64,000 bases of DNA from a virus, in IMG/VR virus record IMGVR_UViG_3300035698_016797, positions 1-64,000 of that record; one strand, written 5' to 3'. The translations under genes were made by a program, and so were the position numbers. Numbering within the stretch: the stretch's first letter is position 1; the number at the start of each line of letters is the position of its first letter. Of this stretch, positions 14,449 through 56,768 are shown piece after piece. The notes below the pieces were generated by a model. It saw only the letters and a list, made by a program, of their open reading frames with translations. It was not told where the DNA came from and did not search any database.

Positions 14449-14928
14449 ATGTACCGCAAAACACCCTCAAAAACACATATTTGCCCCATTTGTGGGCTAA
14501 AAGGGTGTGTTATGGACAGCGTAACTAGGGAGGGTATGCGTAATAGTACATGTGCGTACTACCCCAATGACTTCATTTCCCGATTCTTTATCCAACTTCT
14601 TTCCCAGCGTAATGATTTCTGTCCCTACATATTGCGTACATTTTGGCTATACACGCTACTGGTAGTGTGTGGCACTGTGTATATGTTGAATAACCGAAAA
14701 GATTCTTCGGAGGAATTACGGGATGTTGTTTCGGAGTATAGGATGGTATATGGTGTATATAGAGATGTATATGCTAGTCACTTATCTTTGGCCATTGATT
14801 TAAGCAGAAAAGGGTTGATTCAGACTCTCTTTTACATCCAAGTGTTGGCCCCCTGCCTTGAAAGGAGTAAGGGGAAAAGCGACCTTCCCGATACAGTTCC
14901 GTCGCTGATAGACCAACACCCGGATTGA
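14449..14928 (+). CDS. Zinc-ribbon and membrane-segment protein
   Basis: 159 residues. N-terminal CPICGLKGCVM supplies a zinc knuckle; residues about 55-78 (ILRTFWLYTLLVVCGTVYML) form a likely membrane span; the rest is soluble and helical. TTGGAG precedes the ATG. Function unknown. Confidence 0.6.
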   Translation: MYRKTPSKTHICPICGLKGCVMDSVTREGMRNSTCAYYPNDFISRFFIQLLSQRNDFCPYILRTFWLYTLLVVCGTVYMLNNRKDSSEELRDVVSEYRMVYGVYRDVYASHLSLAIDLSRKGLIQTLFYIQVLAPCLERSKGKSDLPDTVPSLIDQHPD

Positions 14929-14930
14929 GC

Positions 14931-15122
14931 AACTTACCGCACTGTAAAAATTGAAAGAGATGCCTCCTGTTAGTCTGGTCGTGGACTTTTACGCATGACT
15001 ATCGTGGCTATATGGAGGCATCTTATATCTACCTTATCCTGCTACTAGAGACTATCTGTATATGGTGGTTTCTAGTATAGGGATAATCTTATCCATTGTT
15101 TAAGCAAAACGTACCACACTGT
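14931..15122 (+). ncRNA. Structured intergenic element flanked by short repeats
   Basis: A long helix AGATGCCTCC (14958 area) facing GGAGGCATCT (about 15015) encloses a GTCGTGGAC/ATCGTGGC-containing arm; a second arm CTACTAGA...TCTAGTATAG and a GGATAATCTTATCC hairpin follow. The element is flanked by similar tracts ACCGCACTGTAA and ACCACACTGTAA. No reading frame. Whether it is transcribed separately is unknown. Confidence 0.4.
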
Positions 15123-15130
15123 AAGGTTAC

Positions 15131-15562
15131 ATGATGACGATAGCAAAGAAGCAGAAAATTGAACGCAGGGTATGGAACGGGATATACACTGTTGAGCAAG
15201 TACTCTCTAAGATTAAGCCTGTGAACGCTGTCGATGTGATGGTTGACTTTAATGGAAACCTCATAAAGATGAGTTCTCAGCGGTATTTGCTCTTTTCTCG
15301 CAGTTGCACATGCTGTGTATGTGGTGTTATCGGTATATTCTTCGCCAAGGAGAGACATTCAGGTAGCACAAGGTGGCATTTTAATCTATACGCCATTGAT
15401 GATGATGGCGATGAAGTGTTGATGACAAAAGATCACATTATTCCTCGCAGTAGAGGTGGGGAAAACACCCTCAATAACTATCAGACAATGTGCACTGTGT
15501 GTAACGGTAAGAAAGGTGATAAGGGTGAAAGCTCTTTACATATTCAACCTGATGTATCGTAA
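15131..15562 (+). CDS. HNH endonuclease
   Basis: 143 residues. CTCCVCG then DHIIPRSRGGENTLNNYQTM and CTVCNGKKGDKG form a complete HNH module of the type seen in free-standing phage nucleases. The preceding N-terminal 60 residues are probably a DNA-binding part. Start at the first or second ATG. Confidence 0.9.
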   Translation: MMTIAKKQKIERRVWNGIYTVEQVLSKIKPVNAVDVMVDFNGNLIKMSSQRYLLFSRSCTCCVCGVIGIFFAKERHSGSTRWHFNLYAIDDDGDEVLMTKDHIIPRSRGGENTLNNYQTMCTVCNGKKGDKGESSLHIQPDVS

Positions 15563-17613: not shown

Positions 17614-17649
17614 TCCCAAGTAAAACTCAACGTGGTGTGAACACTGAGG

Positions 17650-17937
17650 ATGGGCGTTAATGGTATTGCCCTGCTGTTAGCGTTTGTCTTTAGTGTTCAC
17701 ATCATGTTGAACTCAACGAGGTGTATCATGTTGACCGTGAGAATGGCAAGAACAACAGGAAATTTGATCGTTGAGGATAAATTCCGCAAGAATAGAGCAG
17801 TTATCACGTTAAAGGGACAGATTCTCTTTATAAGTGGGCTGGCTGAAAGTGCGGTAAGATGGGCAGTGAAAGACTACGTTGATAAGTACCCTCGACCAAT
17901 AGGGTGTAAACACACATCCGTTCAGTGTTATGTATAA
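17650..17937 (+). CDS. Hypothetical protein with N-terminal hydrophobic segment
   Basis: 95 residues. GIALLLAFVFSVHIMLN may be a membrane anchor or signal. A basic middle section follows. Function unknown. Confidence 0.55.
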   Translation: MGVNGIALLLAFVFSVHIMLNSTRCIMLTVRMARTTGNLIVEDKFRKNRAVITLKGQILFISGLAESAVRWAVKDYVDKYPRPIGCKHTSVQCYV

Positions 17938-26042: not shown

Positions 26043-26468
26043 GGGGGCGACATGGTTTCGACATGATTAGTGTAAGGTGTACTGCAAGCGGTGGTTGGAC
26101 GAATGGCCACCTAAAAAATCGCCCAAACAAGTAACTCGTAAAGAGACTACTTTCACTGGCTTGAGGCCGGTTGCACGTAAGAGCGTTCTCGCTTTTGCAA
26201 TTGCTGCCTAATCGAGCTATCACCTCATAAGGGGTGCGTCTTTGGTGCCGATGCTCGCTGAGCGTCAACGGCGAAAAGTAGCGAGCAAAGCCTCTCTCTG
26301 ATGTTCTAATGAGAGTTGTAGTTTGAGAACTTAGCGAATGCCAACGGGTTGCTCACACTCGTCCTTGTAATATGGCAGAGCGAATAGTGGACAATGCGAG
26401 ACAAGCTTGTAGAGGTATGCCGATGTAGCTTTTTGTGGACGCGGGTTCGATTCCCGCCGCCTCCACCA
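26043..26468 (+). ncRNA. ssrA: tmRNA (ssrA)
   Basis: 426 nt. The 5' GGGGGCGACATGGTTTCGAC and 3' GCGGGTTCGATTCCCGC plus CGCCTCC-ACCA form the tRNA-like half (acceptor GGGGGCG/CGCCTCC, encoded CCA at 26466-26468). Pseudoknot-like helices fill the interior. The tag frame ends GTT CTC GCT TTT GCA ATT GCT GCC TAA (stop 26209-26211), i.e. ...VLAFAIAA. If translation resumes after the AACT at 26133-26136, the tag is 24 codons. tmRNA rescues stalled ribosomes by trans-translation. It lies in the intergenic space of a + strand operon. Confidence 0.95.
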
Positions 26469-39784: not shown

Positions 39785-40417
39785 ATGTCACAGAACGTAG
39801 CAGTATCATTCGGCGTCAACAAGATGAACCTGGAAATCGCAGGCCAGAGCCTCGCCACCGTCGCGCATCAGCTGAAGAGCCTCTTGGGGCTTGCCGGTGG
39901 CGAAACCCAGAAAGTCAATGGTCGCGAAGCTGCCAATGACTACATCCTCAAGGCTGGCGACAGGCTTGAGTTTGTGAAGGTCAGTGGTCGCAAGGGTGCA
40001 AACGTCTCCGTGACGTTCGGCGTCAACAAGATGAACCTGGAAATCTCAGGCCAGAGTCTGGCAACGGTTGCTCACCAGCTCAAGTCCCTCCTGGGACTTG
40101 CCGGTGGTGAGACCCAGAAGGTCAATGGTCGTACAGTGGCCAATGACTACATCCTCAAGGCTGGTGACAGGCTTGAGTTTGTGAAGGTCAGTGGTCGCAA
40201 GGGTTCGATCGCCGTCAGTGCCGGTGTGAACCGTATGGACCTGGAGCTGGCTGGTAAGACTGTCAGCCAGGTTCGTAAAGAGCTGGCAAGCCTGCTCCAC
40301 ATCGACAATACGTGGAAAGCGGAAGTCAATGGTGCCACCTGTGGTGCCACCAAACGCCTCCGCAACGGTGACAGTCTGGAATTCATCAAGGATTCCGGCA
40401 CCAAGGGTGATGGCTGA
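39785..40417 (+). CDS. Triple-repeat ubiquitin-like protein
   Basis: 210 residues made of three tandem beta-grasp units of 69, 68 and about 73 residues. Each unit has VN[KR]M[ND]LE, a helix (SLATVAHQLKSLLG), VNG, and [LR].[AN]GD.LEF.K, ending SG[RT]KG. The pattern is that of PRTRC system protein C/ThiS-like ubiquitin relatives, which also end in GTKG. Units 1 and 2 are almost identical in protein and share long identical DNA tracts. After unit 3 only DG follows the KG, so a JAMM protease could expose KG ends, as in poly-ubiquitin. Modifier function is inferred. Confidence 0.8.
   Translation: MSQNVAVSFGVNKMNLEIAGQSLATVAHQLKSLLGLAGGETQKVNGREAANDYILKAGDRLEFVKVSGRKGANVSVTFGVNKMNLEISGQSLATVAHQLKSLLGLAGGETQKVNGRTVANDYILKAGDRLEFVKVSGRKGSIAVSAGVNRMDLELAGKTVSQVRKELASLLHIDNTWKAEVNGATCGATKRLRNGDSLEFIKDSGTKGDG
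39811..40410 (+). repeat. Three tandem Ubl coding repeats
   Basis: Units start near 39811, 40018 (207 bases on) and 40222 (204 bases on). Units 1 and 2 share the first 30 bases and the last 70 bases nearly exactly, but differ by synonymous changes in the middle, which suggests gene conversion or selection on the protein. Unit 3 is more diverged. Confidence 0.85.
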
Positions 40418-40448
40418 AACCATCAAATGCTATTGATGTAGCATTAGA

Positions 40449-40488
40449 GTCGGAGGGGGAATGTTCCCCTTCCGACTTTTTCTTTCCA
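40449..40488 (+). terminator. Intrinsic terminator after the triple Ubl
   Basis: GTCGGAGGGGGAA pairs with TTCCCCTTCCGAC (one G-U), followed by TTTTTCTTT. It may lower expression of the downstream E2/E1 genes relative to the Ubl. Confidence 0.88.
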
Positions 40489-40519
40489 AACTGCACTAAA
40501 ACATGGAGGAATAACCAAC

Positions 40520-41251
40520 ATGGCGGCTCCAACCACAGTTCGAACCTACATTCGTATGGAAGGTGAGAGCACTGAACTAGTAGAGGAACGAGTCAAAAAG
40601 AGCTTTGAGACTGAATCTTTTCTTGAAGCACTGAGGCTCGAAGCTGGACTATCGTCCGGTCTCATTCCTCAAGATTGCATCTTCTTCTTCCGTAAACCAC
40701 CAACATCGGCAGAATCCGGTGATGATGCAGTTTACGTGATGGAAAAAGAACCTCGTACGGTCACTATGCACTTTCGCAATTCCGGTGCCAGCGGTAGCGG
40801 AACCGTTCATCCACTCAAAGTGTCTCTTCCGTACTGTCTTTTCTTCATACCCGTTAGAGGTGGAAACATACAGGACATTTGGCCAGTATGTTCAAAGCAG
40901 CGCATCAAAACCATAGATGATCCCATCTTTGTGTTGCCGATACCAAACGTGTACGATTCGGGCCATGGAAGAATTTGTGTTGGAAATCTTCGCATCGACA
41001 ATGAGAGTCCCATCCATGTGAGACTTAACAAGTTGGTGTCGATGGTTTTCACGTCTGAGTTCAACTTGGATTTGACCACGATCTATCCTTCTGTGATGGT
41101 GAAGAAGTCTGGTGAAGATCCATCCATTTTTGGATGGGCACACAAGTCGGAAGGCAATTCGTTGTTTGGATGCTCCGATGAGGTAGAGTACCTGCCTCAT
41201 AATTACGGAACATTCAAAGGTCTAATGGGGAATATAGGATGTCAACTGTAA
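40520..41251 (+). CDS. E2-like protein (PRTRC protein B-type)
   Basis: 243 residues. The middle TVHPLKVSLPYCLFFIPVRG and then VLPIPNVYDSGHGRICVGN follow the PRTRC_B/Prok-E2_D pattern (P...F......W......PL...P..NV...G.[VI]C.G), which is described as an E2/UBC-fold member. Cys153 in RICVG is the conserved residue in the place where PRTRC_B has VCLG; whether it forms a thioester is unknown. Located between the Ubl and the JAMM/E1 genes. Homology is by motif, not by search. Confidence 0.65.
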   Translation: MAAPTTVRTYIRMEGESTELVEERVKKSFETESFLEALRLEAGLSSGLIPQDCIFFFRKPPTSAESGDDAVYVMEKEPRTVTMHFRNSGASGSGTVHPLKVSLPYCLFFIPVRGGNIQDIWPVCSKQRIKTIDDPIFVLPIPNVYDSGHGRICVGNLRIDNESPIHVRLNKLVSMVFTSEFNLDLTTIYPSVMVKKSGEDPSIFGWAHKSEGNSLFGCSDEVEYLPHNYGTFKGLMGNIGCQL

Positions 41252-41595
41252 AGCAGTTTGACAGAATATTGAGTGCAACTGAAAACATTCCAACCGTCAA
41301 TGCTCAACCAATCAGTTCCGTGTTTGGGGTTTTGACAAAAAACAGTGTTCCTCGGTTGCTGACAATTACCGGAAATGCGACAACTATCATGTTGGCGCAG
41401 TTTTTACTGTTCTTGCGCAGACAGTTGAAGCATGTAAAATGTTTGATGGTCCTTGACAACAAAAACAAGGGTCAAGTAGATCGCGCATTCGTTAAGGCTG
41501 AAGTGATTCAGAGAGACAGAGATGCTGCAAAAGCCATTGCGGCCAAGAAAAAAACCAAGGGTAAGACGGTCAAAAAGACCAAGGAGTTGTTCTGA
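41239..41595 (+). CDS. Hypothetical protein of the Ubl locus
   Basis: 118 residues, basic C-terminus (KKKTKGKTVKKTKELF). RLLTITGNATTIMLAQFLLF looks like a buried alpha/beta core. Overlaps both the E2-like and JAMM genes, so it is tightly coupled. Not recognised. Confidence 0.65.
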   Translation: MSTVKQFDRILSATENIPTVNAQPISSVFGVLTKNSVPRLLTITGNATTIMLAQFLLFLRRQLKHVKCLMVLDNKNKGQVDRAFVKAEVIQRDRDAAKAIAAKKKTKGKTVKKTKELF

Positions 41596-42680
41596 TGAAC
41601 AGATTCGTGACGTCCCAAGGCATCCCAATCATTACAATGGAAGATGGAGATGATGTGGAGTCCATTACGGACCCCATCTGTTTCATCGTTTCATCCAAAG
41701 GTTGCTTCGTAAAGAAGACCAATCGGTTCTACACTTCCGTAACCGCAACAGGAAAAGACGGAATCAGCGTGCTTGGAGAAGTCAAGCCGTTCGTATCTTT
41801 CGCAGTAACAAAGCTGCCGCTTCCGACATTCCGTGCCATTCGCCAGTTCTTCACTGATGTCTACAAGAAGATGCAATCTGAAGTGGCCATCATGTTGTAC
41901 TACGATTTCGATGCGAAGTTGTGGTTGTGGGTGGTTCCTGAGCAGAAGGTAACTGCCGCCAGTGTTGACTATGAGGAGACCGACAAATCCATCATCATCA
42001 ACCAGGACAACGAACGTATTGAAGGTCCGGTTCCAGACAGCTTTACGAAGCTCGGAAGTATCCATTCTCATGCAGGAATGGGAGCCTTCCATTCTGGTAC
42101 TGACAACGCTGACGAATTCCACTTCGACGGCCTACACATCACCATCGGCTCGTTCAACAAGGCAAGCAGTGGAGATTGTTCGTACTCTGCACGCTGGATC
42201 ATCGCCGGAGAAGAAGTGAAGACTGAAATCACGGAAGTGGTTGCAGATCTCGATCCTCCTGGAGAATACCCCGAAGATGCTCATGAAGCAGTAAAGAAGG
42301 GTACATCTGCCAGTCGCACTTATGGATCAGGACGTTCCATTGGTGCCGGTACAGGAAAAGGAGGTGCGGGTCAATCGGGAATAACAAACCCTACCCAGGC
42401 GGCGAAAGGCCGCCAGACGACGCAGACGACTCAGAGTGGCAAGCCTGGTACGAAACCTGGGGAAGGTGCGACGGTGGATACAACTGGTAAAGCTCCAGCG
42501 ACTGGTAAAGCTCCAGCGACTGGTAAAGCTCCAGCGACTGGTAAAGCTCCGACAACTGGGAAAGGTCCAGTGAAGGGTTTGACGGCAGGTGACACTCAAG
42601 CAGTGACTCCTCTCGTTCCGGCGAAAGGTTCAGAAGAAAAACCGGGCCAGGAAAAAAAAACCAAGACAGAGTCATCGTAG
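41595..42680 (+). CDS. JAMM/JAB metalloprotease-like protein (PRTRC protein A-type)
   Basis: 361 residues. GSIHSHAGMGAFHSGTDNAD holds the JAMM zinc site H157-x-H159-x7-S-x2-D170; E96 may be the catalytic Glu. These enzymes cleave isopeptide or linear bonds after ubiquitin-like proteins. The last 150 residues are low-complexity, ending in four near-copies of TGKAPA and a charged tail, probably a flexible adaptor. AAGGAG precedes the ATG, which overlaps the previous stop. A natural substrate would be the KG-ended triple Ubl. Confidence 0.82.
   Translation: MNRFVTSQGIPIITMEDGDDVESITDPICFIVSSKGCFVKKTNRFYTSVTATGKDGISVLGEVKPFVSFAVTKLPLPTFRAIRQFFTDVYKKMQSEVAIMLYYDFDAKLWLWVVPEQKVTAASVDYEETDKSIIINQDNERIEGPVPDSFTKLGSIHSHAGMGAFHSGTDNADEFHFDGLHITIGSFNKASSGDCSYSARWIIAGEEVKTEITEVVADLDPPGEYPEDAHEAVKKGTSASRTYGSGRSIGAGTGKGGAGQSGITNPTQAAKGRQTTQTTQSGKPGTKPGEGATVDTTGKAPATGKAPATGKAPATGKAPTTGKGPVKGLTAGDTQAVTPLVPAKGSEEKPGQEKKTKTESS
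42482..42560 (+). repeat. 18-base tandem repeat in the JAMM gene
   Basis: Four copies of ACTGGTAAAGCTCCAGCG (the last diverged) encode TGKAPA. Copy number could vary by slippage. Confidence 0.9.
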
Positions 42681-42747
42681 AGAATCCGGCGAGTGCGGGA
42701 ATACAATTCCTGAAAACGACTCCAGATCAGAGCAGTTCATAGAAAGA

Positions 42748-42834
42748 ATGGTCGAAAGGTTCGGCTCTGAAGTTGGAGACAATCTTCAAGAGGCTGTTGA
42801 GTTGGCACGAGCCAGCCAACAGTCAGAAGGATAG
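42748..42834 (+). CDS. Possible 28-residue peptide
   Basis: MVERFGSEVGDNLQEAVELA...QSEG, ending six bases before the E1-like start. The same frame is open for 60 more bases upstream without a good start. Weakly supported. Confidence 0.35.
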   Translation: MVERFGSEVGDNLQEAVELARASQQSEG

Positions 42835-42840
42835 AACGAT

Positions 42841-43551
42841 ATGTACAAGAATGTCATAGTTATTGGCTGTGGAGGAATTGGATCACATCTTCTTCCTCCG
42901 CTGACACGATTCTTCGCTTCAATGGAGAAAGAGAAGCGTCCCAAGGAAATGAGAATCGTTGATGGAGACAAGTATGAGCAAGGCAATGCCGATCGGCAAG
43001 AGTTTGTTGCTCGTCAAGTCAACCAGAATAAAGCAGAGGCGCAGAAGGAACGCTGTTCAGTCATTCACGAAGGAATGATGGACTACTATGCGTTCCCGGA
43101 ATACCTCGGTAGCGGCAATATTGACAGCATTATTGAAGAGGATTCAATTATCTTCATGTGTGTTGACAATCATGTTTGTCGCAGTATTGTGTCGAAACAC
43201 TGTCAAACGTTGAACAACGTTGCTCTCATCACGGGAGCAAACGAACTCACCGACGGCAACGTACAGATTTACGTCAGAAAAGATGGAAAGGATATGTCTC
43301 CTCCAATAGAAAAGAGACATCCTGAAATCAGCACGGCGAAAGATGGTGACAGATCAATGATGAGCTGTGAGGAGATTGAGAAGTTGCCCGGTGGTGGACA
43401 AATCATTCTGGTGAATGCTACCGCCGCGAATCTTCAATTTCAACTCGCTTGGGAATGGCTCTCTATCGGAAAGCTTCCTTTCGAGGAGGTATATTTCGAC
43501 GTTGAGTCAATCGGAATGCGTGGGGTGCCAAATGACTACTCCAAAAAGTAG
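42841..43551 (+). CDS. E1/ThiF-like adenylating enzyme (PRTRC ThiF type)
   Basis: 236 residues. VIGCGGIGSH (residues 7-16) is the Rossmann ATP loop; VDGDKYEQGNADRQEF (40-55) has the D..D, N49 and R52Q53 of the E1 active site; CVDNHVCR (107-114) follows. Candidate catalytic Cys176 is in MMSCEEIEKLPGGGQI, where E1 enzymes of the PRTRC group have a Cys before a GGQ. It would adenylate the C-terminus of the Ubl. Family assignment is good; substrate specificity is inferred from the neighbours. Confidence 0.85.
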   Translation: MYKNVIVIGCGGIGSHLLPPLTRFFASMEKEKRPKEMRIVDGDKYEQGNADRQEFVARQVNQNKAEAQKERCSVIHEGMMDYYAFPEYLGSGNIDSIIEEDSIIFMCVDNHVCRSIVSKHCQTLNNVALITGANELTDGNVQIYVRKDGKDMSPPIEKRHPEISTAKDGDRSMMSCEEIEKLPGGGQIILVNATAANLQFQLAWEWLSIGKLPFEEVYFDVESIGMRGVPNDYSKK

Positions 43552-44341
43552 CACAGCTCCTCCGGTAAAAAAGTCGGAAGCAAAAGCCAAAACAACCGCC
43601 AAGAAGGACGAGAAAAAAGCCGTAGTAAAGAAGGCTGACAAAGCTTCTGCGGCACCTATTCTGATTCCTGAAGAAATGAGGATTAGGTGTTTGTTTGTTG
43701 ATGGACTGGCTCCAAATCACGTAATAGTTGCCTACGGAGACGACAATGCGTCTTTGCTGAGCACTGGAGTGTGTGTTCGTGATCCAGAAAACAATAAACG
43801 GTTTTATCATATCACACAAATGTTGGTTGGTTTCACCCCAGAAACGGCCGGTCCTTACTTTCAGCCGTTGACTGGTCAAATGTTGCTGGCATCATTGAAG
43901 CATCACAAGGCTAAACTGACATTTCCTTTGACTGTATTTAGAGTTGTTCATCTGTGGGAAGATGGGAACATCATTGGATGGTCAAAAAGAAGTCAAGAGA
44001 AAGCCTTGGAGCGCAGTACTTCGATGTATCTCTGTGCACAGTGTAAAATTTCTGTGACAAATGGAGTTTACGCTCCTGGATGCTCTCCGTATTCAGAGGT
44101 TATAGCTAAAGCTGTAACCATGGCAGAGAGTAAAGTTGCGTTTCACAATCTGTTGGCAACTCGTGTGATTGAAGGCAACCACGATTTATGGTCGTTCTTG
44201 TCGGCCAACGCCTACCTTGATAGTCTGTGTACAAGGTGTCGTCTCTTGGCAATAAAAAGCCTAACTGGAGAAATAGTTACTCAGATTGCGACAACAGGAA
44301 GAATGAAACCGGTGTTTCAAAACGAAAAGGAGGTTGAGTAA
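43532..44341 (+). CDS. Hypothetical protein of the Ubl locus
   Basis: 269 residues. The first 35 residues are a Lys/Ala-rich linker (KKSEAKAKTTAKKDEKKAVV); the rest is globular with possible zinc site (CAQC...GC; LCTRC). Overlaps the E1-like stop. Could correspond to a PRTRC accessory gene but shows no recognisable motif. Confidence 0.68.
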   Translation: MTTPKSSTAPPVKKSEAKAKTTAKKDEKKAVVKKADKASAAPILIPEEMRIRCLFVDGLAPNHVIVAYGDDNASLLSTGVCVRDPENNKRFYHITQMLVGFTPETAGPYFQPLTGQMLLASLKHHKAKLTFPLTVFRVVHLWEDGNIIGWSKRSQEKALERSTSMYLCAQCKISVTNGVYAPGCSPYSEVIAKAVTMAESKVAFHNLLATRVIEGNHDLWSFLSANAYLDSLCTRCRLLAIKSLTGEIVTQIATTGRMKPVFQNEKEVE

Positions 44342-45270
44342 TGGCTCAACAAGTAGTCTCTCATACCGTTTATATGACGGCAGAGACGGATGTAACTTTA
44401 CCACAGCTGGAAGGAGCAAACGAAGCTCTCGTTGAAGAGCTTAGAGTACTTCTTCTTGGCAATAAGAAGGTTGAAGCGGTTCAGAAGTTTCGTCTGGCAA
44501 CAGGCTGTTCTCTGAAGGATGCTGTAGACCGACTGATTATCGGCTGGTGGATGGAGTTTGCACAAAGTCTCATTGATCCGTCAAAATACCCAGAAAAGTG
44601 CTGTTTCAATTGTGTTGGAACGTGCGGCAAACTTGCCAATCTTCAATCTACAAATGGAGCAAAACTTTGGGACATTGACAATCAGATTCCATGTGGAACC
44701 AATTGCAGTGTGTTTATGACCCTTGAAGCCCTCAAGAAGAGTTTGGTGATCAAGGATAGCGCAGTACAGGTAAAACTTACCAACTCTGCCAACAGCAGTG
44801 TGACGAACATCATCGTTGACACTCCTATTGTGAAGACAGAAAGAAGCAATCGTGATGGCAAGGTTCTTGAAACGAAGTTTGTGATCCACTCAAAATCACA
44901 AGTTGTAACAAAAGTTTCAGGTGCAATCTGCAAACTGTTTCTTGCCGGTTTCCAATGGTCCTCAACCAATGGTTTCGAAGGAACTCTGACTGTTGGGACA
45001 TGTGAACCAAAAAGCAAGGAAACGTGGGAAAAATATCTTGAAAGAGCTTCTGAGGAAGTAAGAAAAGCTCGTGAGTGCGTCACCGAAACGTACCAGGCAA
45101 TGGATGAAAAGACTTTGTTCGCGGCTATGGAAAAATTCCTGACAAAGCGTGGACTGAAGAATGTTATTGCCAACTATAACGGTGATATTGAGTCTCTGTG
45201 TGACGACATGTTCCCAGATCAGGAACTGGTGTATGTTGCCATTGAATTCGCAAGGGAAGATTTGTCATGA
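44341..45270 (+). CDS. Hypothetical Cys-rich protein of the Ubl locus
   Basis: 309 residues starting after AAAAGGAGG. CCFNCVGTCGKLANLQSTNG then CGTNCSVF gives six Cys in the middle; otherwise alpha/beta. Not recognised. The TAATG overlap with the preceding gene implies coupling. Confidence 0.68.
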   Translation: MAQQVVSHTVYMTAETDVTLPQLEGANEALVEELRVLLLGNKKVEAVQKFRLATGCSLKDAVDRLIIGWWMEFAQSLIDPSKYPEKCCFNCVGTCGKLANLQSTNGAKLWDIDNQIPCGTNCSVFMTLEALKKSLVIKDSAVQVKLTNSANSSVTNIIVDTPIVKTERSNRDGKVLETKFVIHSKSQVVTKVSGAICKLFLAGFQWSSTNGFEGTLTVGTCEPKSKETWEKYLERASEEVRKARECVTETYQAMDEKTLFAAMEKFLTKRGLKNVIANYNGDIESLCDDMFPDQELVYVAIEFAREDLS

Positions 45271-46169
45271 TTGTTATGATTGACCAATACGTTAAATTGC
45301 CAGACACTTCCGATTTCAAACCCATTGTTCCGAAGAATGCCAATGAAGGAAAAATCATTCTTCAATTCAAAACGACCTTTCGGAATCCTGAGACGCTCAG
45401 TATTATGAAAGATTGTCTGTTGTCCGCCGGTCATGAATGTGAAAGTTCTCGCATTGACCAGAAATGGTTAAATGAAGCCTTCACGCCAATCATGCACGAA
45501 ATGATCAAAGGGTTTGTTATATGGGGACTGCCGACCTTCATGAAGAAGGCAAGAGAGCATTCTCCAAGAGGGTTCGGAAGTGGTAGTAAAAGACGAGTTT
45601 TTATGAGAAGCCTCTTTGATCAGTTTTTGGAAGAGGGTTTTGCCTTAAAGTCGGCAGAAAACTTTGCACTCTCATCATTCTCTTCTATTGGATGGAGAAT
45701 GCCTGAAAGTATTCGTGTTAGAGGACAAGGTTGGACTACTCAAATTGCTCGCTCTTTCGGAAACTTTATTAACAATGTAAACCGTGGCAGAACGTCACAT
45801 TCAATCCTCAACGTGCTAAGAAGTTGTACTCCATACCCGTATGTGACAGAAGAGGGAGATCAGTTCGTACTTCCAAACAGTGACAATAAAAATGTGGTTG
45901 ATGCATGTCATCAGTTCACTAACATTATGAACGGCGTCATGGATAACACGAACGCAATATTCAACGAGATTGAATGGGTCTCTGACACCATGTCAGACAT
46001 GAATCCTTGCGGTAGAGCAGGATGTAACGAAGGAAACATGTGTTCAAGCTGTTACGATAGGCTGTACGATCTTGTTGATGGATGTGCCGGAAAGACTGAC
46101 GCTAACAGGTATTTTGTGACAGCTGTTGAAAATCGAGAAACCTTTGATAGCATAACGCCGTCAGAATAA
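45267..46169 (+). CDS. Hypothetical protein with C-terminal Cys cluster
   Basis: 300 residues. The end NPCGRAGCNEGNMCSSCYDR can bind zinc (C..C....C..C). The N-terminal two-thirds is helical and not recognised. ATGA coupling upstream. Confidence 0.68.
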   Translation: MIVMIDQYVKLPDTSDFKPIVPKNANEGKIILQFKTTFRNPETLSIMKDCLLSAGHECESSRIDQKWLNEAFTPIMHEMIKGFVIWGLPTFMKKAREHSPRGFGSGSKRRVFMRSLFDQFLEEGFALKSAENFALSSFSSIGWRMPESIRVRGQGWTTQIARSFGNFINNVNRGRTSHSILNVLRSCTPYPYVTEEGDQFVLPNSDNKNVVDACHQFTNIMNGVMDNTNAIFNEIEWVSDTMSDMNPCGRAGCNEGNMCSSCYDRLYDLVDGCAGKTDANRYFVTAVENRETFDSITPSE

Positions 46170-46200
46170 CAACATTTAGTATTCAAGAAGGAACAGGAAA

Positions 46201-46962
46201 ATGGAAGAAACACCATCGTTCGTAGCAGAGGCACAGCGCCAACTTGAAGCGCAGAATGCAACACTTCAAGCAGAAGCGGAGGCTATGCTACAACAAACCG
46301 CGCAAAACGAAGAAAACATATCGGAACGTGTTACGGCTCAAGTCCCAGAAATGATGACGGCAGACAATGTTCTGTCTGAAGAACGTGAAAAAATGGCAAT
46401 TCTATATGCCGTAAACACGTATCTTGTCATCACCAATCGTGGATTTGGAGTTATTGACCTACTTAATTCGTGGGTAAGCAGCACTGGGTCAACGATTCCG
46501 GTTATGGATTTCTCGTGGTGTTCCGACAACTTGATCAACACCAACATCTTGAATGGGACAGTAAAACTTGATGACATTGTTGATTGGTTGAAGTCAATTG
46601 ACCCAACTCTCAGCGAAATGTTTCTTTGCTTCCATGGCAAGGTTGACGACACATTTGTCCAATTGGTTGCCAACATGGGCAGAGCAGAAGGTCTTCTGCC
46701 TTTCGCAGTTAAACTTTCACGTTCTTTCGACAAGATACCCGAGGGTACAAGAGGCTTTATCTGGCCACTTCCAAAAGGGGCAGGAAAACTCGAAGGCATG
46801 GAAGGTTTTGTACCTATCTTGCTGGAAAAAGAATTCCCCTTCTGTCACTCGTTTGAGATGGTGACTGGTGAGCCGATAGAAGGAGTCAATAAAAGAGGTT
46901 TCTTCATCTCACTTTCTTGCTTAGAACAGGATAATGGGGTGATGGTTGCCAAAAAGTGTTAA
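46201..46962 (+). CDS. Hypothetical protein, gene before the reverse transcriptase
   Basis: 253 residues. Coiled-coil N-terminus (AQRQLEAQNATLQAEAEAML), then an alpha/beta domain (IPVMDFSWCSDNLINTNILN). Ends ten bases before the RT start; AAGAAGGAACAGG site. Function unknown, but adjacency makes it a candidate RT partner. Confidence 0.65.
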   Translation: MEETPSFVAEAQRQLEAQNATLQAEAEAMLQQTAQNEENISERVTAQVPEMMTADNVLSEEREKMAILYAVNTYLVITNRGFGVIDLLNSWVSSTGSTIPVMDFSWCSDNLINTNILNGTVKLDDIVDWLKSIDPTLSEMFLCFHGKVDDTFVQLVANMGRAEGLLPFAVKLSRSFDKIPEGTRGFIWPLPKGAGKLEGMEGFVPILLEKEFPFCHSFEMVTGEPIEGVNKRGFFISLSCLEQDNGVMVAKKC

Positions 46963-46971
46963 GGAGTACGT

Positions 46972-48249
46972 ATGCTGAATCAATTGTCACGACAGTTTGG
47001 AGAGCTGCCAGTAGAACTTGTTGCTAAAGATCAAAGCGACATTCCGATAGTGTCGTTTATTCAAGCTAGGCATGGGCCGGTATTGCCTGGTCGAAATATA
47101 AACGAGAAGGCATTTGGCCAACTACTTGAACTTCTGCTCGAAGGCAAGATTGTCAGAGTTAGATGTAATATAGATGCTTTTGCTCAAGAGATGGAGCATC
47201 TGAGAAAACTTGCATCTAAAAATGTTCTCATGGTATCTGCTACGGATATTTGGGAACATAATAGAGGTGAAGTTTACAAATTCAGGTTTAACGCATCAAG
47301 CGAATACTATATGGGACTTGATGAATTAGTAAATCCTGTTGATATAATTGCTTCTGTTCTTGGAGTGGAGGGAGAACTCCTTACAAGTCTTATGGCAGAT
47401 ATTTCGTCTCACTACAATCGCTTTCCATTGACAAAAAGGGATGGTTCGCAAAGATGGATTAACGCTCCAGACGATGATCTGAAAGGGGTTCAGAGACGCA
47501 TAATGAACAGAATGCTTTATCGTGGATGGGCAACTCCATGTGCTCACGGATTCATTCATGGAAAAAGTATTAAGACAAACGCAGAACGTCATGTTGGAGC
47601 CAAGGTTGTCGTCAAAATGGACATATCCAAATTCTTTGACAACATAGGAATTGACAAACTTAATACAGCCTTTGTTCCTCTGCTGAAAGCAGAAGAGCTT
47701 TTCACAATCAATTTTATCTCATCGTTGTGTACTCTCAACGGGGTCACCCCACAAGGAGCACCAACGAGTCCCGCACTATCAAATCTCGTGGTAAGAAACA
47801 TGGACTTTGCCCTCATGGGTTTAGCCAGAAAACATCACGCAGTCTACACGAGATATGCTGATGATTTGGTATTTTCCTCGAAAGATAATCGTGCATTACC
47901 ATCAATCATCCCTTTGGTAATGAACGTTGTCAACTCGAATGGGTTCCGAATCAACATGAGAAAAACCGGAGTCTTTCGCGACGGTGGAAGAATGCCGGTA
48001 ACCGGACTGGTAATCAATAAACATACAAACGTTCCTCGTAAGGAGCGTTATAAAGTACGTGCGGAGCTTCATAACATTGCAACTGGAAGAAAACCTGCAA
48101 GCGAAGAGGATCTTCAGCGTCTCGCCGGAAAGGTGGCGTTCATCAATATGGCGAATCCGCAACAGGGAGCACGTTTTGATAGTTTGATGACAGCAGCAAA
48201 GGCTGGTGCCGTACAATCAACGGAAGGTGCGGAAAACAATGACAGTTGA
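46972..48249 (+). CDS. Retron-type reverse transcriptase
   Basis: 425 residues. From residue 145 the RT core shows: RWINAPDDDLKGVQRRI, AHGFIHGKSIKTNAERH (N203-A-x-x-H207), VVKMDISKFFDNI (D217), GVTPQGAPTSPALSNLV, YTRYADDLVFS (YADD 295-298), GFRINMRKTG and PVTGLVIN (VTG 343-345). NAxxH and VTG are the diagnostic retron motifs; QGxxxSP excludes diversity-generating elements. The first 140 residues are an unrecognised N-terminal domain. AAGGAG starts the gene. It would copy msr-msd RNA into a branched RNA-DNA molecule. No ncRNA lies directly upstream; see the four RNAs downstream. Confidence 0.92.
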   Translation: MLNQLSRQFGELPVELVAKDQSDIPIVSFIQARHGPVLPGRNINEKAFGQLLELLLEGKIVRVRCNIDAFAQEMEHLRKLASKNVLMVSATDIWEHNRGEVYKFRFNASSEYYMGLDELVNPVDIIASVLGVEGELLTSLMADISSHYNRFPLTKRDGSQRWINAPDDDLKGVQRRIMNRMLYRGWATPCAHGFIHGKSIKTNAERHVGAKVVVKMDISKFFDNIGIDKLNTAFVPLLKAEELFTINFISSLCTLNGVTPQGAPTSPALSNLVVRNMDFALMGLARKHHAVYTRYADDLVFSSKDNRALPSIIPLVMNVVNSNGFRINMRKTGVFRDGGRMPVTGLVINKHTNVPRKERYKVRAELHNIATGRKPASEEDLQRLAGKVAFINMANPQQGARFDSLMTAAKAGAVQSTEGAENNDS

Positions 48250-48436
48250 CAACATTACAGTAGACAAAATCCCAGACGAAATTGAAGAATGCTTCAACCA
48301 AGCAGGAATCACACTGGAACAATTAGACGAAGCTTCTCTGCTTCTGGAAGAAAAATATGGAATCACGCTAGCACTCACAACCCACTTCGACAGTAAAGAA
48401 GAGGAACATATTGTTCTAGCCAGACCAATTCCGTAA
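48239..48436 (+). CDS. Small acidic protein after the RT
   Basis: 65 residues from MTVDNITVDKIPDEIEEC. The start overlaps the RT stop by eleven bases, so it is coupled to the RT. Acidic, helical. Possible RT partner; function unknown. Confidence 0.62.
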   Translation: MTVDNITVDKIPDEIEECFNQAGITLEQLDEASLLLEEKYGITLALTTHFDSKEEEHIVLARPIP

Positions 48437-48516: not shown

Positions 48517-48547
48517 AAAAAGGAGTCTTATTTAAAAGACTTTTTCT
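48517..48547 (+). terminator. Intrinsic terminator of the Ubl-RT operon
   Basis: AGTCTT...AAGACT with A-rich 5' flank and TTTTTCTCG after it. Just before it, TTGACGGT (48477 area) pairs with ACCGTCA to form another stem-loop. Confidence 0.8.
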
Positions 48548-48663
48548 CGTTCTTTTATATTAATTCCTCTCATGCATATGCTATCAGCTCTGATGTTTCA
48601 TCTGAGTGTAGTTTACATTCACAGCGTAGAGCGACACGGGGTCGCCTCCTGCTGTTAGAACGA
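48547..48663 (+). other. Structured gap, possible fifth, diverged ncRNA locus
   Basis: TCGTTCT (48547 area) faces AGAACGA (48658 area). Between them lie CAGC followed by a GATG-TTT-CATC hairpin, a TGTA-GTT-TACA hairpin, and ACAGC..GCGAC-ACGGG-GTCGC..GCTGT. The last looks msd-like. But the ATT-GG and AAG-AAT signatures of the four clear loci are missing, so I do not count it with them. Confidence 0.35.
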
Positions 48664-48697
48664 CCGTCTACTGTTGAAAACACGAAAAGGAAAGCAA

Positions 48698-48892: not shown

Positions 48893-48900
48893 CATAACGC

Positions 48901-49071
48901 TGTAGATTGGTTTTAGCCAGATGTTTCATCTGGGAGATTATTACGTGGGCATCATAGTGAATACTACAAGTATTCACATTAAAGCCCCAGAGAGAGCCTA
49001 TCACGACTCGGCAGTCGTCCAAAGACGACTTTAGTCGTACCGGCTCACTCTCGGGGCTTAAAGAATCTACA
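48901..49071 (+). ncRNA. Retron-like ncRNA 1 (candidate msr-msd)
   Basis: a1 TGTAGATT (48901-48908) pairs perfectly with a2 AATCTACA (49064-49071). After a1 comes GG, so G48909 is the predicted branch G. msr-like hairpins: CCAGATG-TTT-CATCTGG (48917-48933) and GTGAATAC-TACAA-GTATTCAC (48957-48977). msd-like helix: AAGCCCC.GAGA.GAGCC (48982-48998) with GGCTC.CTCT.GGGGCTT (49042-49059), enclosing two ACGACT/AGTCGT hairpins. Template end AAAG precedes a2, so the predicted DNA begins CTTT. It sits between two genes with no terminator of its own. Confidence 0.72.
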
Positions 49072-49096
49072 AAACAAATAAAAGTGATATATACAT

Positions 49097-49750
49097 ATGG
49101 AACAACAAGAAGGTAACTTGGTGCCAATCTTCTTCTGTGAAAAACTTTCCAAAGCAGAAGTAATAGCTTGGCGAAGAGTTATCAACGTAGCATATTCCTC
49201 TCTATCCAAAGAGGAAAAGAGTGTAATTCCCCCGTTTTATGTGTACTGTACAATGGTGAGTTCTCTGTATCACACCTTTAATGCACATTTACATATGATG
49301 GAAAAGATGATGGATCAGTTCGCACAGGACAAAGTGTGGTCATATGCGTTCTTACAAGATCCTGAAATACGCAATGAGAACATTCCAGAAGAAGAGTTCC
49401 AAAGAATAGTAATAGCCAATCATCGTACACACTTGACTCCAGATCTTTCTCCAGAAATGGTAGTGTTTCACGAAATGTGGCACTTCATACTGTTCAGTCT
49501 TCATAAAATTCCGTACGTAGTAGAGAACAGGAAACAAGTCGAAGGAATGTGTGACAAGAATGCAATTATGTCATACGTTAGAATGTTGATTCGCAATCCT
49601 CAATACTCCTCCAACACAGAAGATGGAGAAGTGAGGTTGCTTGAGAAAAGAGTTAGACTGTGGCGCTCCCAAATGGAAGAAAAAGACATGCCATTAGCGC
49701 AAATCGAAAACAATATGCTCAAAGGAGTAGGAGAACTTCTCAATGACTGA
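49097..49750 (+). CDS. Zinc metallopeptidase-like protein
   Basis: 217 residues. VVFHEMWHFILFS contains H125-E126-x-x-H129, the HExxH zinc site; EGMCDKNAI about 25 residues later could provide the third ligand, as in SprT/IrrE-like gluzincins. The rest is not recognised. It lies directly after ncRNA 1 and before RuvB; its start overlaps none of them. A retron effector role is conceivable, but only from its position. Confidence 0.72.
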   Translation: MEQQEGNLVPIFFCEKLSKAEVIAWRRVINVAYSSLSKEEKSVIPPFYVYCTMVSSLYHTFNAHLHMMEKMMDQFAQDKVWSYAFLQDPEIRNENIPEEEFQRIVIANHRTHLTPDLSPEMVVFHEMWHFILFSLHKIPYVVENRKQVEGMCDKNAIMSYVRMLIRNPQYSSNTEDGEVRLLEKRVRLWRSQMEEKDMPLAQIENNMLKGVGELLND

Positions 49751-53543: not shown

Positions 53544-54104
53544 ATGAAAGAAATACTTGTCGTAGATATAGAAACCACAGGATTCCTGAAACAAGGTGGA
53601 CTGATTGTCGAAATTGGAATTGTCAGTCTTGATCTGGACACAGGTGGAATTTCCGTACTGTTTGACTCCGTCGTTAAGGAAGGTGGATTTGGCCGTCAAC
53701 ACGCACAATCACCATTCGGATGGATCTTCCAAAATTCAAACTTAACATATGAAGACGTTGTAGCCTCAGAAAACCTCAAATGTCATATGTATCAACTTCA
53801 GACGATCTTTGACAATCATCCACTCGGTGCAACGGCATTCAATAAACAGTTTGACTTCGGGTTCTTGAAAGCACGGGGGTTGCACTTCAGAGAGCTTCCG
53901 TGCATTATGCTTGAAGCCTGTCCTGTTGTTAACCTTCCTCCAAATCGTGGTCGTTCAACACCTAAATGGCCTAAGGTAGAAGAGGCGTGGGAATATCTCT
54001 TTCCAAACAATGATTATGTTGAACAACATCGTGCCATTGATGATGTTGAACATGAGGCGATGATTCTTCACGAACTTTACATGCTTGGAAGGTATACGAT
54101 ATGA
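53544..54104 (+). CDS. DnaQ-like 3'-5' exonuclease
   Basis: 186 residues. VVDIETTGFL (D8, E10) is Exo I; ATAFNKQFDFGFL Exo II; EQHRAIDDVEHEA Exo III with the HxxxxxD order of the DEDDh class. Single-domain exonuclease, DNA or RNA. ATGA coupled to the next gene. Confidence 0.9.
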   Translation: MKEILVVDIETTGFLKQGGLIVEIGIVSLDLDTGGISVLFDSVVKEGGFGRQHAQSPFGWIFQNSNLTYEDVVASENLKCHMYQLQTIFDNHPLGATAFNKQFDFGFLKARGLHFRELPCIMLEACPVVNLPPNRGRSTPKWPKVEEAWEYLFPNNDYVEQHRAIDDVEHEAMILHELYMLGRYTI

Positions 54105-54361
54105 CCATTGACACAAAAGCAAATGTTGGAGATGAAATCTTTGTCATTTTTGACAACGATATACAGAAGTGTAAAATTTTAGATATCAAAATCATTACTG
54201 CTGAAACCTATACCGTTGAGAAGTATTCAGTAATGGTGGAGACAGGTAGTCGTGGAGAGCGAAAATCCTTAACTGTACAAGATACAGACTTAGTCTTCAA
54301 GGTAGAAGGATTGATAAAGCATCCACACTGGTCACGAATTGCCAGAGCTAAGGCTAAATGA
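54101..54361 (+). CDS. Small paralogue of 29532
   Basis: 86 residues. VGDEIFVIFDNDIQKCKILD and LVFKVEGLIKHPHWSR match the family described at 29532. Function unknown. Confidence 0.7.
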   Translation: MTIDTKANVGDEIFVIFDNDIQKCKILDIKIITAETYTVEKYSVMVETGSRGERKSLTVQDTDLVFKVEGLIKHPHWSRIARAKAK

Positions 54362-54370
54362 GGTGACTCC

Positions 54371-54667
54371 ATGTCTATGAATCTTAATGTCACATTTGAT
54401 GGCCTGCCTGGAAGCCTAAGACAAACCTCAAGCCAAATCTCATACATGTGTATTGTTCAACCAGACGGTGCTATTCCCGGTATTCTCACTGGTAAAAAGG
54501 CAAAACATGCTCTTGAAATTTACTTACAGTGGATAAGATACTCTCTTAATGGAGTGTGGGAATCAGAAGAGGAATTACGAAGTGCTAACGCAGGCGTAAA
54601 AGAACACATTGAAAGCGTTAGGGGGATGATTCATTCATCCAAGAAAATTGAAGTATGGGTAATGTAA
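54371..54667 (+). CDS. Hypothetical protein
   Basis: 98 residues, small alpha/beta protein (SQISYMCIVQPDGAIPGILT). Lies between two paralogues of the 29532 family. Not recognised. Confidence 0.62.
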   Translation: MSMNLNVTFDGLPGSLRQTSSQISYMCIVQPDGAIPGILTGKKAKHALEIYLQWIRYSLNGVWESEEELRSANAGVKEHIESVRGMIHSSKKIEVWVM

Positions 54668-54681
54668 AATGAGGTGTTACA

Positions 54682-54966
54682 ATGCACTTTAGCTCAAAAT
54701 ACAACATTGATGATGAAGTCTTCCTTGTCCATCAAAACAGAATCATTAAAGGAAGTATTTTAGACATCAAAGTTGCCGTCAACAGAAAAAGAGGGCTTCC
54801 AACAAGTGCCCCTCCTGCTGCTAAGAGAATCTGTCTCATCTCTTACAATATTACATTCAAACTTCCTGGATCAAGAAAAGTCCACACAATGTGGCTAGAA
54901 GAAGAAGATGTTGTTTTCTACGTAGAAGGTTTGTTTTTCCACAAACGTTGGGGAAGTTCTAAATAA
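54682..54966 (+). CDS. Small paralogue of 29532
   Basis: 94 residues. IDDEVFLVHQNRIIKGSILD and VVFYVEGLFFHKRW show the family motifs; the middle has an insertion (KRGLPTSAPPAAKRI). Confidence 0.7.
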   Translation: MHFSSKYNIDDEVFLVHQNRIIKGSILDIKVAVNRKRGLPTSAPPAAKRICLISYNITFKLPGSRKVHTMWLEEEDVVFYVEGLFFHKRWGSSK

Positions 54967-54974
54967 CTTTCTAA

Positions 54975-55431
54975 TGGAGTGAACGAAGAGTCTACGCTGA
55001 GAGAAGTGTGATGTGCCCTCTTGAAAGGGTATGGTAAAACTTCGCTACGGACGGAGGAATATCTCTTCGGAAGAACATCCTTGGTGGGATGCATACCACT
55101 AAGGAACCGAGTGAAAGTCTCGGCCACCTATTTTGATGTACAGCGTTAGCTCATGATGGCGAGAGCGTCCTGTAATTGGGTATGGCGGAGGTTCGAGTCC
55201 TCTCCTGTACATCTTTATGTTGTCCAAAAGTCCCACTGCTCATGGTGGAGTAAAGGGAACGTGCTTGGTCTTACTAGCTGTGGGACGCCTGTTTATAGGT
55301 AGCGGAAGCTAGGAGGCTGTTTCTCCGGTCTGTTTTGGCAGGTGCAGTCGTCAGATACGTTTGCACTGAGGTGTACTTTAATGTGAAAAATGGGTCACAT
55401 TAATGCCCAACCTGCCCCCTACATTTTTTTT
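54975..55431 (+). ncRNA. Large structured RNA with embedded tRNA-like domain
   Basis: About 450 bases without a frame, ending in a terminator-like 3' domain: GGCAGGT (55337 area) pairs with ACCTGCC (55410 area), followed by CCCCTACATTTTTTTT. A tRNA-like domain is closed by GATGTACAG/CTGTACATC (55135-55213): D-arm GCTC...GAGC and T-arm GGAGG-TTCGAGT-CCTCT, but the acceptor is nine pairs and there is no CCA. Other helices: TCCTTGGTGG...CCACTAAGGA, CCGAG...CTCGG, GTCCCAC...GTGGGAC, TAGC-GGAA-GCTA, TTAATGTG...CACATTAA. Giant phage RNAs such as GOLLD may contain tRNAs; I cannot establish a match. Confidence 0.6.
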
Positions 55432-55456
55432 CCAATCCAAACAAGAAAGGTATATC

Positions 55457-55715
55457 ATGACAACCAGAGTATGGAATATGCGGTAATGCTTGGGGATACG
55501 AACCCTTGACTACAGCAAATGTGCACGAAATAACATGCAGGTCGTGTAAAAAGAATATGGGTTCATACTTAGAGAAGGAGCGCAAGCGAGAAGAGCGTGT
55601 ACTGCGTAACCTACAAAGACAAATACGCAAAATAGCCGCTACTATTCTCGAACTTGAGAATGAAAAGCGGGCCGTGAGCAAAAAGATCAGCGACATGTTA
55701 AACAAAATTCAATAA
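55457..55715 (+). pseudogene. Frameshifted or recoded zinc-ribbon/coiled-coil gene
   Basis: Starts at ATG after AAGAAAGG: MTTRVWN, then the frame stops. In the +1 frame the sequence continues CGNAWGYEPLTTANVHEIT, then CRSCKKNMG and a coiled-coil tail to 55715. Reading AAT-A-TGC with one base skipped gives a continuous protein with CG...CRSC. I do not know if this is programmed +1 frameshifting, a real mutation or an assembly error. A TTG at 55506 would otherwise start a shortened protein. Confidence 0.55.
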
Positions 55716-55731
55716 AGTCAGGAGAAGTATT

Positions 55732-55932
55732 ATGGGACTGAAAGAATTTAGAGATCCAAACGGCGAAGCACGTCGTCCAGAGTGGAATCGTCCAAACAAA
55801 AAAGCAGCAGCAAATCTCAAGAGACGCGTAAAGGGACACAACTCCGTCATTGGTGGTGTACCCTCCAACGTTGTATCTTCTCATACCGGCAACTGTCCCG
55901 GAAGCATGAAAATTCCCGGACGCGGAGCATAA
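55732..55932 (+). CDS. Small basic protein
   Basis: 66 residues (MGLKEFRDPNGEARRPEWNR). Basic, Pro/Gly-rich. AGGAGAAG precedes the ATG. Ends 18 bases before ncRNA 3. Confidence 0.58.
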   Translation: MGLKEFRDPNGEARRPEWNRPNKKAAANLKRRVKGHNSVIGGVPSNVVSSHTGNCPGSMKIPGRGA

Positions 55933-55950
55933 TCAGACAGACCTGACAAT

Positions 55951-56379
55951 TTCTCATTGGCTTGGTCCTCGGACAGCTTGATGAATCATCAAGCCGCTAA
56001 CATATTGAGGTCTCAATTCTCATCAAAGCGAGAATTGATTCCATGAAATATACTTTATTATACTAATTCCGCATTTGAATTCACAGGATGATAACTACTG
56101 AGAACCTGGAATCCGGCGTACATCTCATCTGTTAATGAGATGCTGTGCCGCCACAAGGCGGCACTCTGCCGGACACCTGGACTCAGAGTTCTAATCACAC
56201 CAGGTTCCTCCTCGAAGACTTACTGGGAAACCCAGTAAGAGCCAGCAGTTCCCTGGGGGACGCCCAGGGAAAGGCAGGCTGGACCAGGCTACACCTGGTC
56301 TGGGAATATCTTCGAGCCACCTGGTTCTGCAAATTCACAGGCTCATTAGTATATTAATGATATATTTCAAGAATGGGAA
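55951..56379 (+). ncRNA. Retron-like ncRNA 3, largest (candidate msr-msd)
   Basis: a1 TTCTCATT (55951-55958) pairs with a2 AATGGGAA (56372-56379; one G-U). GG follows a1; AAG precedes a2. msr-like hairpins: GCTTGATG-AAT-CATCAAGC (55976-55994) and TCAATTCTC...GAGAATTGA (56013-56038). msd-like region is about 280 bases of branched helices: TCCGGC/GCCGGA enclosing CATCTCAT...ATGAGATG and GCCGCC-ACAA-GGCGGC; CTCGAAGA (56211) with TCTTCGAG (56308) enclosing CTTACTGGG-AAA-CCCAGTAAG, TTCCCTGGG...CCCAGGGAA and GACCAGG...CCTGGTC. Eight CCWGG sites lie within 56105-56324. Confidence 0.62.
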
Positions 56380-56383
56380 TTCT

Positions 56384-56635
56384 ATGATTCATTGGATTGC
56401 ATACTAGTTGCATGTGTGATGTTTCATCACACTTTAACATTAACATAGAAAATAAGTATCCTTTCTCAGCAAAGAACCCACAGGGTTTTTGCTGCGAGGA
56501 TGCTTATGGCTCCTGGATGGTACTGAATTAAAATGAATTGGCAATTGATTTTAATACAGCACAATCACGCGCTGCACTTTCTGCTGCTCTACGCTCAGCA
56601 GAGTTCAGCTCTCAGGAACCTTAAGAATGAATCGT
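56384..56635 (+). ncRNA. Retron-like ncRNA 4 (candidate msr-msd)
   Basis: a1 ATGATTCATT (56384-56393) pairs over ten bases (one G-U) with a2 AATGAATCGT (56626-56635). GG follows a1; TTAAG precedes a2. Hairpins: GTGTGATG-TTT-CATCACAC (56414-56432); ATAAGTATCC (56452-56461) with GGATGCTTAT (56498-56507) enclosing CAGCAAA..AACCC-ACA-GGGTT..TTGCTG; ATTAAAAT.AATT-GGC-AATT.ATTTTAAT (56527-56555); CTGCTG...CAGCAG. It begins four bases after ncRNA 3 ends, in tandem. Confidence 0.68.
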
Positions 56636-56740
56636 ATTTTAGGAGTATCGTCTAACGAAATAGGATACTGTGGTAGCAATACCCAGAGATGCAGGACTAT
56701 CCCTGTTACTCCAACTTTAGAGTTTGTTGATTTTAGCTCC

Positions 56741-56768
56741 TTGAACCCATGACAAAGTGTGGTATATT
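56741..56768 (+). promoter_or_regulatory. Possible promoter for the ribonucleotide reductase
   Basis: TTGAAC, 16 bases, TATATT, 80 bases before the RNR start. A CCCGGC...GTCGGG hairpin follows in the leader. The 56636-56740 stretch also contains AGTATC...GATACT and CAGG...CCCTG helices but no frame. Confidence 0.45.

Follow-up and report, generated by a model that had tools for sequence, protein, structure and literature searches.

The window (the whole stretch of DNA analysed, 64,000 nt of a 181,030-bp IMG/VR virus record) carries a retron-class reverse transcriptase (RT) at the end of a run of ubiquitin-like (Ubl) pathway genes, followed by a candidate msr-msd RNA. The best guess for this locus is a Ubl-regulated phage retron: the RT and its downstream msr-msd would be built into a PRTRC-like Ubl operon and act with it as a joint system, a reading given a probability of about 45%. 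It draws, at the level of sequence, on the retron hallmarks of the RT, the Ubl/E2-like/JAB/E1-like operon, the retron-like RNA and the recurrent linkage of RT genes with E1 or JAB genes.

Gene content of the Ubl-RT run

The plus-strand run spans 39785-48436, and from 42841 to 48436 neighbouring genes overlap or nearly touch. A tmRNA (26043-26468) and more than a dozen tRNA genes lie elsewhere in the window. The genes and terminator-like elements of the run and its immediate flank are as follows.

39785-40417, plus strand: three tandem ubiquitin-like domains of ThiS/TGS type (Pfam ThiS 8.1e-10, TGS 1.2e-8, Ub-Mut7C 4.7e-7)
40446-40479, plus strand: strong intrinsic terminator in the Ubl-E2 gap (15-bp stem and U-run, -26.6 kcal/mol, z -5.6)
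40520-41251, plus strand: E2-like protein, PRTRC_B/Prok-E2_D-like (PF14460 E=2e-5, 24.8 bits against a cut-off of 25)
41239-41595, plus strand: small basic protein of the E2-JAB interval (assigned by position only)
41595-42680, plus strand: JAB/JAMM isopeptidase, PRTRC_A-like (PRTRC_A E=1.5e-6, Prok-JAB E=0.0016)
42841-43551, plus strand: E1-like adenylyltransferase, PRTRC ThiF-like (PF00899 E=3.9e-18, PRTRC_ThiF E=3e-19)
43415-44341, plus strand: Cys-rich protein without confident family (ORF; start uncertain, may be near 43532)
44341-45270, plus strand: Cys-rich, possibly zinc-binding protein without confident family (11 Cys)
45267-46169, plus strand: Cys-rich protein without confident family (CxxC motif, by sequence reading)
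46201-46962, plus strand: acidic protein of 253 aa with a long N-terminal helix, directly 5' of the RT (pI 4.53)
46972-48249, plus strand: retron-class RT, 425 aa (family profiles, motifs, tree, AF2 model and PDB matches)
48239-48436, plus strand: acidic 65-aa protein overlapping the RT stop (pI 4.16; only weak family matches)
about 48517-48546, plus strand: weak, AT-rich terminator-like hairpin and U-run (-8.9 kcal/mol, z -1.5)

PRTRC_A, PRTRC_B, ThiF-type and Ubl proteins are thus all present, with the PRTRC models scoring below their own cut-offs. A gene similar in size to 41239-41595 occupies the same E2-JAB position in loci L102 and L103. A single-protein scan with the ThiF-like protein returned no close relatives. 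The earlier note had seen no known effector family near the RT, and family library scans agree, matching none in the products of 46201, 48239, 45267, 44341 and 43415.

The extent of the transcription unit is less simple than had been supposed. The earlier note considered the RT and Ubl genes to be probably one transcript, with a terminator following at 48517. The strong terminator at 40446-40479 follows the Ubl gene, and the segment from E2 to RT is therefore the likelier single unit: one transcript for E2-JAB-E1-...-RT is arguable, and its extension to the Ubl gene (39785-40417) is less clear. The hairpin and U-run at about 48517-48546 do exist, but they are weak and absent from the output of a plus-strand terminator scan.

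A retron-class reverse transcriptase

The product of 46972-48249 is almost certainly a retron-class RT, in agreement with the earlier assignment. Its ORF is intact, and AAGGAG precedes its ATG. The protein matches Pfam RVT_1 (E=7.7e-25), the retron St85 family NF038233 (E=1.7e-64, 217.9 bits against a curated cut-off of 235) and PADLOC RT_XIII (E=1.7e-78), type XIII giving the top score; no PADLOC model of a type-XIII partner matched among the neighbouring genes scanned. The region X motif NAxxH is kept as TNAERH, together with the active site RYADD (YADD) and the region Y motif VTG, as PVTG. The AF2 model of the core is confident (pLDDT mostly above 90), and its best 18 PDB matches are all retron entries, including Eco2, Ec86, Eco7, Ec78 and Ec83. 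Assignment to group II intron or DGR RTs was rejected on scores and folds that rank below those of retrons.

Residues 1 to about 118 form an N-terminal extension without a confident fold in the AF2 model and without relatives among the loci fetched. In the RT tree, phage contig L026 supplies the sister RT (99/87; UFBoot 99), and both fall within a clade of phage retron RTs. A scan with the single protein found no close relatives, and the record holds no second RT.

Linkage of RT and Ubl genes across phages

A same-strand retron-like RT lies within about 6.5 kb of ThiF in 16 of 80 viral ThiF loci, against 0 of 37 loci in a bacterial control with the same query (Fisher p=0.0025); this contrast drops to p=0.034 when only loci of at least 15 kb are counted, and the ThiF profile, seeded with three RT-linked ThiFs, favours linked clades. 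Approached from the RT side, ThiF adjoins the RT in 3 of 80 viral RT loci (L047, L064 and L084), and MT835544.1, found from this side, shows the gene order JAB-ThiF-RT. ORFs neighbouring most linked ThiF genes contain a JAMM motif. Many Ubl-linked RTs lack NAxxH or VTG. Two control scans that used other genes of the window, encoding RNA ligase and RuvB, returned no loci and so gave no general base rate for these counts.

Of the 18 RTs in ThiF-bearing records, 15 are found on the same strand as ThiF and no more than 6.5 kb from it, where 1.3 would be expected; the records are not independent in this count, because the RTs form clades. When lineages are taken as units, the probability is about 1.5e-6 for five lineages and 0.005 for only two. 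Ubl-linked RTs occupy five places on the RT tree (5 changes), of which at least two are forced.

Because RT-E1 adjacency recurs in phages, the coupling of the RT to the Ubl operon, as first proposed for this locus, appears to be more than a local accident. The recurrent pairing suggests, without proving it, that RT and Ubl machines work together, and a functional link between the two in phages generally is rather probable. The linkage in the window is probably an event of its own, since neither its nearest ThiF relatives nor its sister RT is linked: loci L093-L122, which hold the closest ThiF relatives, show no RT within the fetched flanks (up to 10 kb), and the L026 record contains a ThiF gene far away from its RT. 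An unrelated distribution of RT and Ubl genes in relatives, named earlier as grounds for abandoning the coupling, is not what the loci show overall, even though these closest relatives are unlinked.

These unlinked relatives favour an alternative in which the two are neighbours only, a working phage retron sharing a block of accessory genes with the Ubl operon and having no joint function with it. Large phages often carry both, and ThiF is found anywhere in 16 of 50 RT-bearing virus records, mostly tens of kb from the RT. The excess of adjacent, same-strand RTs in ThiF-bearing records and the presence of the linkage in several RT lineages argue against this alternative, which is considered somewhat unlikely.

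A candidate msr-msd RNA downstream of the RT

A structured stretch beginning 652 nt downstream of the RT, beyond the terminator-like hairpin, contains the parts expected of a retron RNA.

48901-49071, plus strand: candidate retron ncRNA (msr-msd; folding z -7.4, shuffle test)
48901-48908, plus strand: a1 arm TGTAGATT, pairing with a2 at 49064-49071
48914-48917, plus strand: TAGC motif with predicted branch guanosine 48916 (sequence)
48917-48933, plus strand: predicted msr stem-loop CCAGATG-UUU-CATCTGG with a UUU loop
48957-48977, plus strand: predicted second stem-loop GTGAATACT...AGTATTCAC
48982-49059, plus strand: predicted long msd hairpin
49064-49071, plus strand: a2 arm AATCTACA, pairing with a1 at 48901-48908

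The z score refers to the folding of 48893-49096, and among 400 shuffled versions of the 660 nt of non-coding sequence after 48436 none yields an a1/a2 candidate of equal quality. TAGC is the usual retron branch-G motif (PMC6868368). An Rfam search around 48901-49071 gave no relevant match. The predicted identity of this stretch as a retron ncRNA is considered likely. The earlier note, whose gene-level picture of the locus holds, missed both this RNA, lying beyond the terminator it had named, and the recurrence of the linkage. The region at about 48560-48690, which shares GATGTTTCATCTG, was considered as a further ncRNA but is not claimed, its folding being hardly superior to that of shuffled sequence (z -1.3).

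In the standard retron cassette the ncRNA lies upstream of the RT (PMC6868368), whereas the candidate of the window lies downstream. The same finder gives no better candidate upstream of this RT, and it recovers the upstream Ec86-type ncRNA in L075. Downstream a1/a2 RNAs occur elsewhere: that of the sister RT L026 begins inside the RT 3' end, and the Ubl-linked loci L064 (2285-2884) and L084 (6600-7155) each carry two tandem msr-msd-like RNAs directly after an RT that lacks NAxxH and VTG. The four a1/a2 pairs of L064 and L084 differ in sequence and keep their complementarity. Several phage retrons thus have their RNA downstream, and the window is no oddity in this respect. A jumbo-phage retron clade has a structured RNA about 600-720 nt downstream of the RT, in which a short-loop stem shows covariation.

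It is improbable that the RT serves the Ubl operon without any retron RNA, in a DRT-like manner or from another template, and that 48901-49071 is an unrelated phage RNA. A recognisable msr-msd is indeed missing at most Ubl-linked RTs (L047, L140, L165, L166 and L170-L172 are examples with no clear retron RNA), and strongly structured RNA that has nothing to do with the RT occurs elsewhere in this genome, at 17.6 kb and 56.1 kb. The RT of the window nevertheless keeps NAxxH and VTG, its candidate RNA shows the parts of a retron RNA in the expected order, with TAGC following a1, and RNAs also lie downstream of the sister RT L026 and of the L064/L084 pair.

Other structured regions were observed in passing. 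A long hairpin at 17619-17720, with arms near CAACGTGGTGTGAACACT / AGTGTTCACATCATGTTG, is the strongest structure of the window for its GC content. No long ORFs occur in the interval 54104-56757 (about 2.6 kb), which contains some of the strongest RNA structure of the window at 56059-56353. In L127, 36-nt inverted arms (14884-15187) precede a Ubl-linked RT by about 1.2 kb.

Genes flanking the RT and its RNA

The arrangement described in the earlier note, with an RT starting ten bases past one small gene and a stop overlapping another, is borne out by a 9-nt spacing after 46201-46962 and an 11-nt overlap with 48239-48436. The accompanying proposal that these genes encode small partners of the RT fared less well. 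Searches of phages, viral contigs and family libraries revealed no recognisable relatives of either protein, and the other RT-Ubl loci contain neither of them; 46201 gave one trivial 31-residue match and no match in a phage search. Both are orphan genes, and as RT partners they are no more than possible. Structure prediction, suggested earlier as a check, gave for 46201 an uninformative model (pLDDT 43) in which only the N-terminal helix is confident. Farther downstream, the protein encoded at 49097-49750, with no Pfam matches, contains a HEMWH (HExxH) zinc-protease-like motif.

A conventional tripartite retron with 46201, 48239 or the HEMWH-motif protein as effector and an irrelevant Ubl operon is quite improbable, for although 46201, the RT and 48239 are tightly coupled and 49097 begins 25 nt beyond the a2 arm, the flanking orphans lack relatives, match no effector family and do not recur beside other RTs.

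A possible joint device

In a Ubl-regulated phage retron, the RT would copy the msd from branch guanosine 48916 into msDNA and would stay bound to the product. More speculatively, the Ubl enzymes could act on the RT-msDNA particle or on an operon protein bound to it; Ubl would be attached by E1/E2 and taken off again by JAB. The retron and Ubl pair might then form one switchable device during infection, whose target would most likely be host defence or rival phages, and the Ubl machinery would stand in for the usual retron effector. As a tentative generalisation, phages may have repeatedly joined retron-class RTs with Ubl operons into a new kind of system, with mutual regulation between the reverse-transcribed DNA and Ubl tagging and with a retron RNA that is encoded downstream, in some cases as a tandem pair.

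Bacterial defence against phages is the role for which retron RTs are mainly known, and PRTRC-type Ubl operons have, to our knowledge, no known function. A recurrent and phage-specific link, if true, would provide a testable role for each and would indicate Ubl tagging as a regulator of the RT or of msDNA. The downstream and sometimes duplicated ncRNA is relevant to retron finders that search only upstream. The pairing of a retron RT with a Ubl operon was not reported in the literature searched, a search whose scope excluded most subscription papers and preprints.

Comparison with known systems

The RT of the window shares its fold and motifs with those of retrons (St85/Ec67/Ec86-type RTs, with PADLOC type XIII as best score), and the candidate ncRNA shares with theirs the a1/a2 arms, the branch-G motif, short msr stems and a long msd hairpin. 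It differs from retrons in the position of the ncRNA, downstream past a terminator-like hairpin instead of upstream, in the N-terminal extension of about 118 aa, in the lack of a known effector among the genes found and in the location of the RT, which lies within a Ubl operon and is carried by a large phage.

The jumbo-phage RT loci L029, L033, L034, L056, L060 and L072 resemble the window in combining a phage retron RT with a structured RNA 570-720 nt downstream. Unlike the window, they have the order DHH phosphoesterase - RT - RNase H, and where the genome has a ThiF it is not at this locus; family tests for DHH and RNase H cover L029 only, and RNase H was not called in L072. The fuller arrangement DHH phosphoesterase - RT - RNase H - small ORF - structured RNA was observed in L029 (8878-11972) and also in L031, L033, L034, L056 and L060. 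An RNase H (PF00075) was not found in the record of the window.

PRTRC and related prokaryotic Ubl/E2/JAB/E1 operons (Iyer 2006, PMC1779556) provide the closest gene-level parallel, with clustered tandem Ubl repeats, Prok-E2_D-like, JAB (PRTRC_A-like) and ThiF genes as in the window. The run described here scores below the cut-offs of the PRTRC families, ends with an RT and is carried by a phage.

The resemblance to CBASS with Cap2/Cap3 would be one of working principle only, E1/E2 and JAB being found beside a nucleic-acid or nucleotide enzyme. CBASS operons of this kind place E1/E2 and JAB beside a nucleotide enzyme in one operon; in the window an RT replaces the cGAS-like enzyme, and Ubl, E2 and E1 are separate genes.
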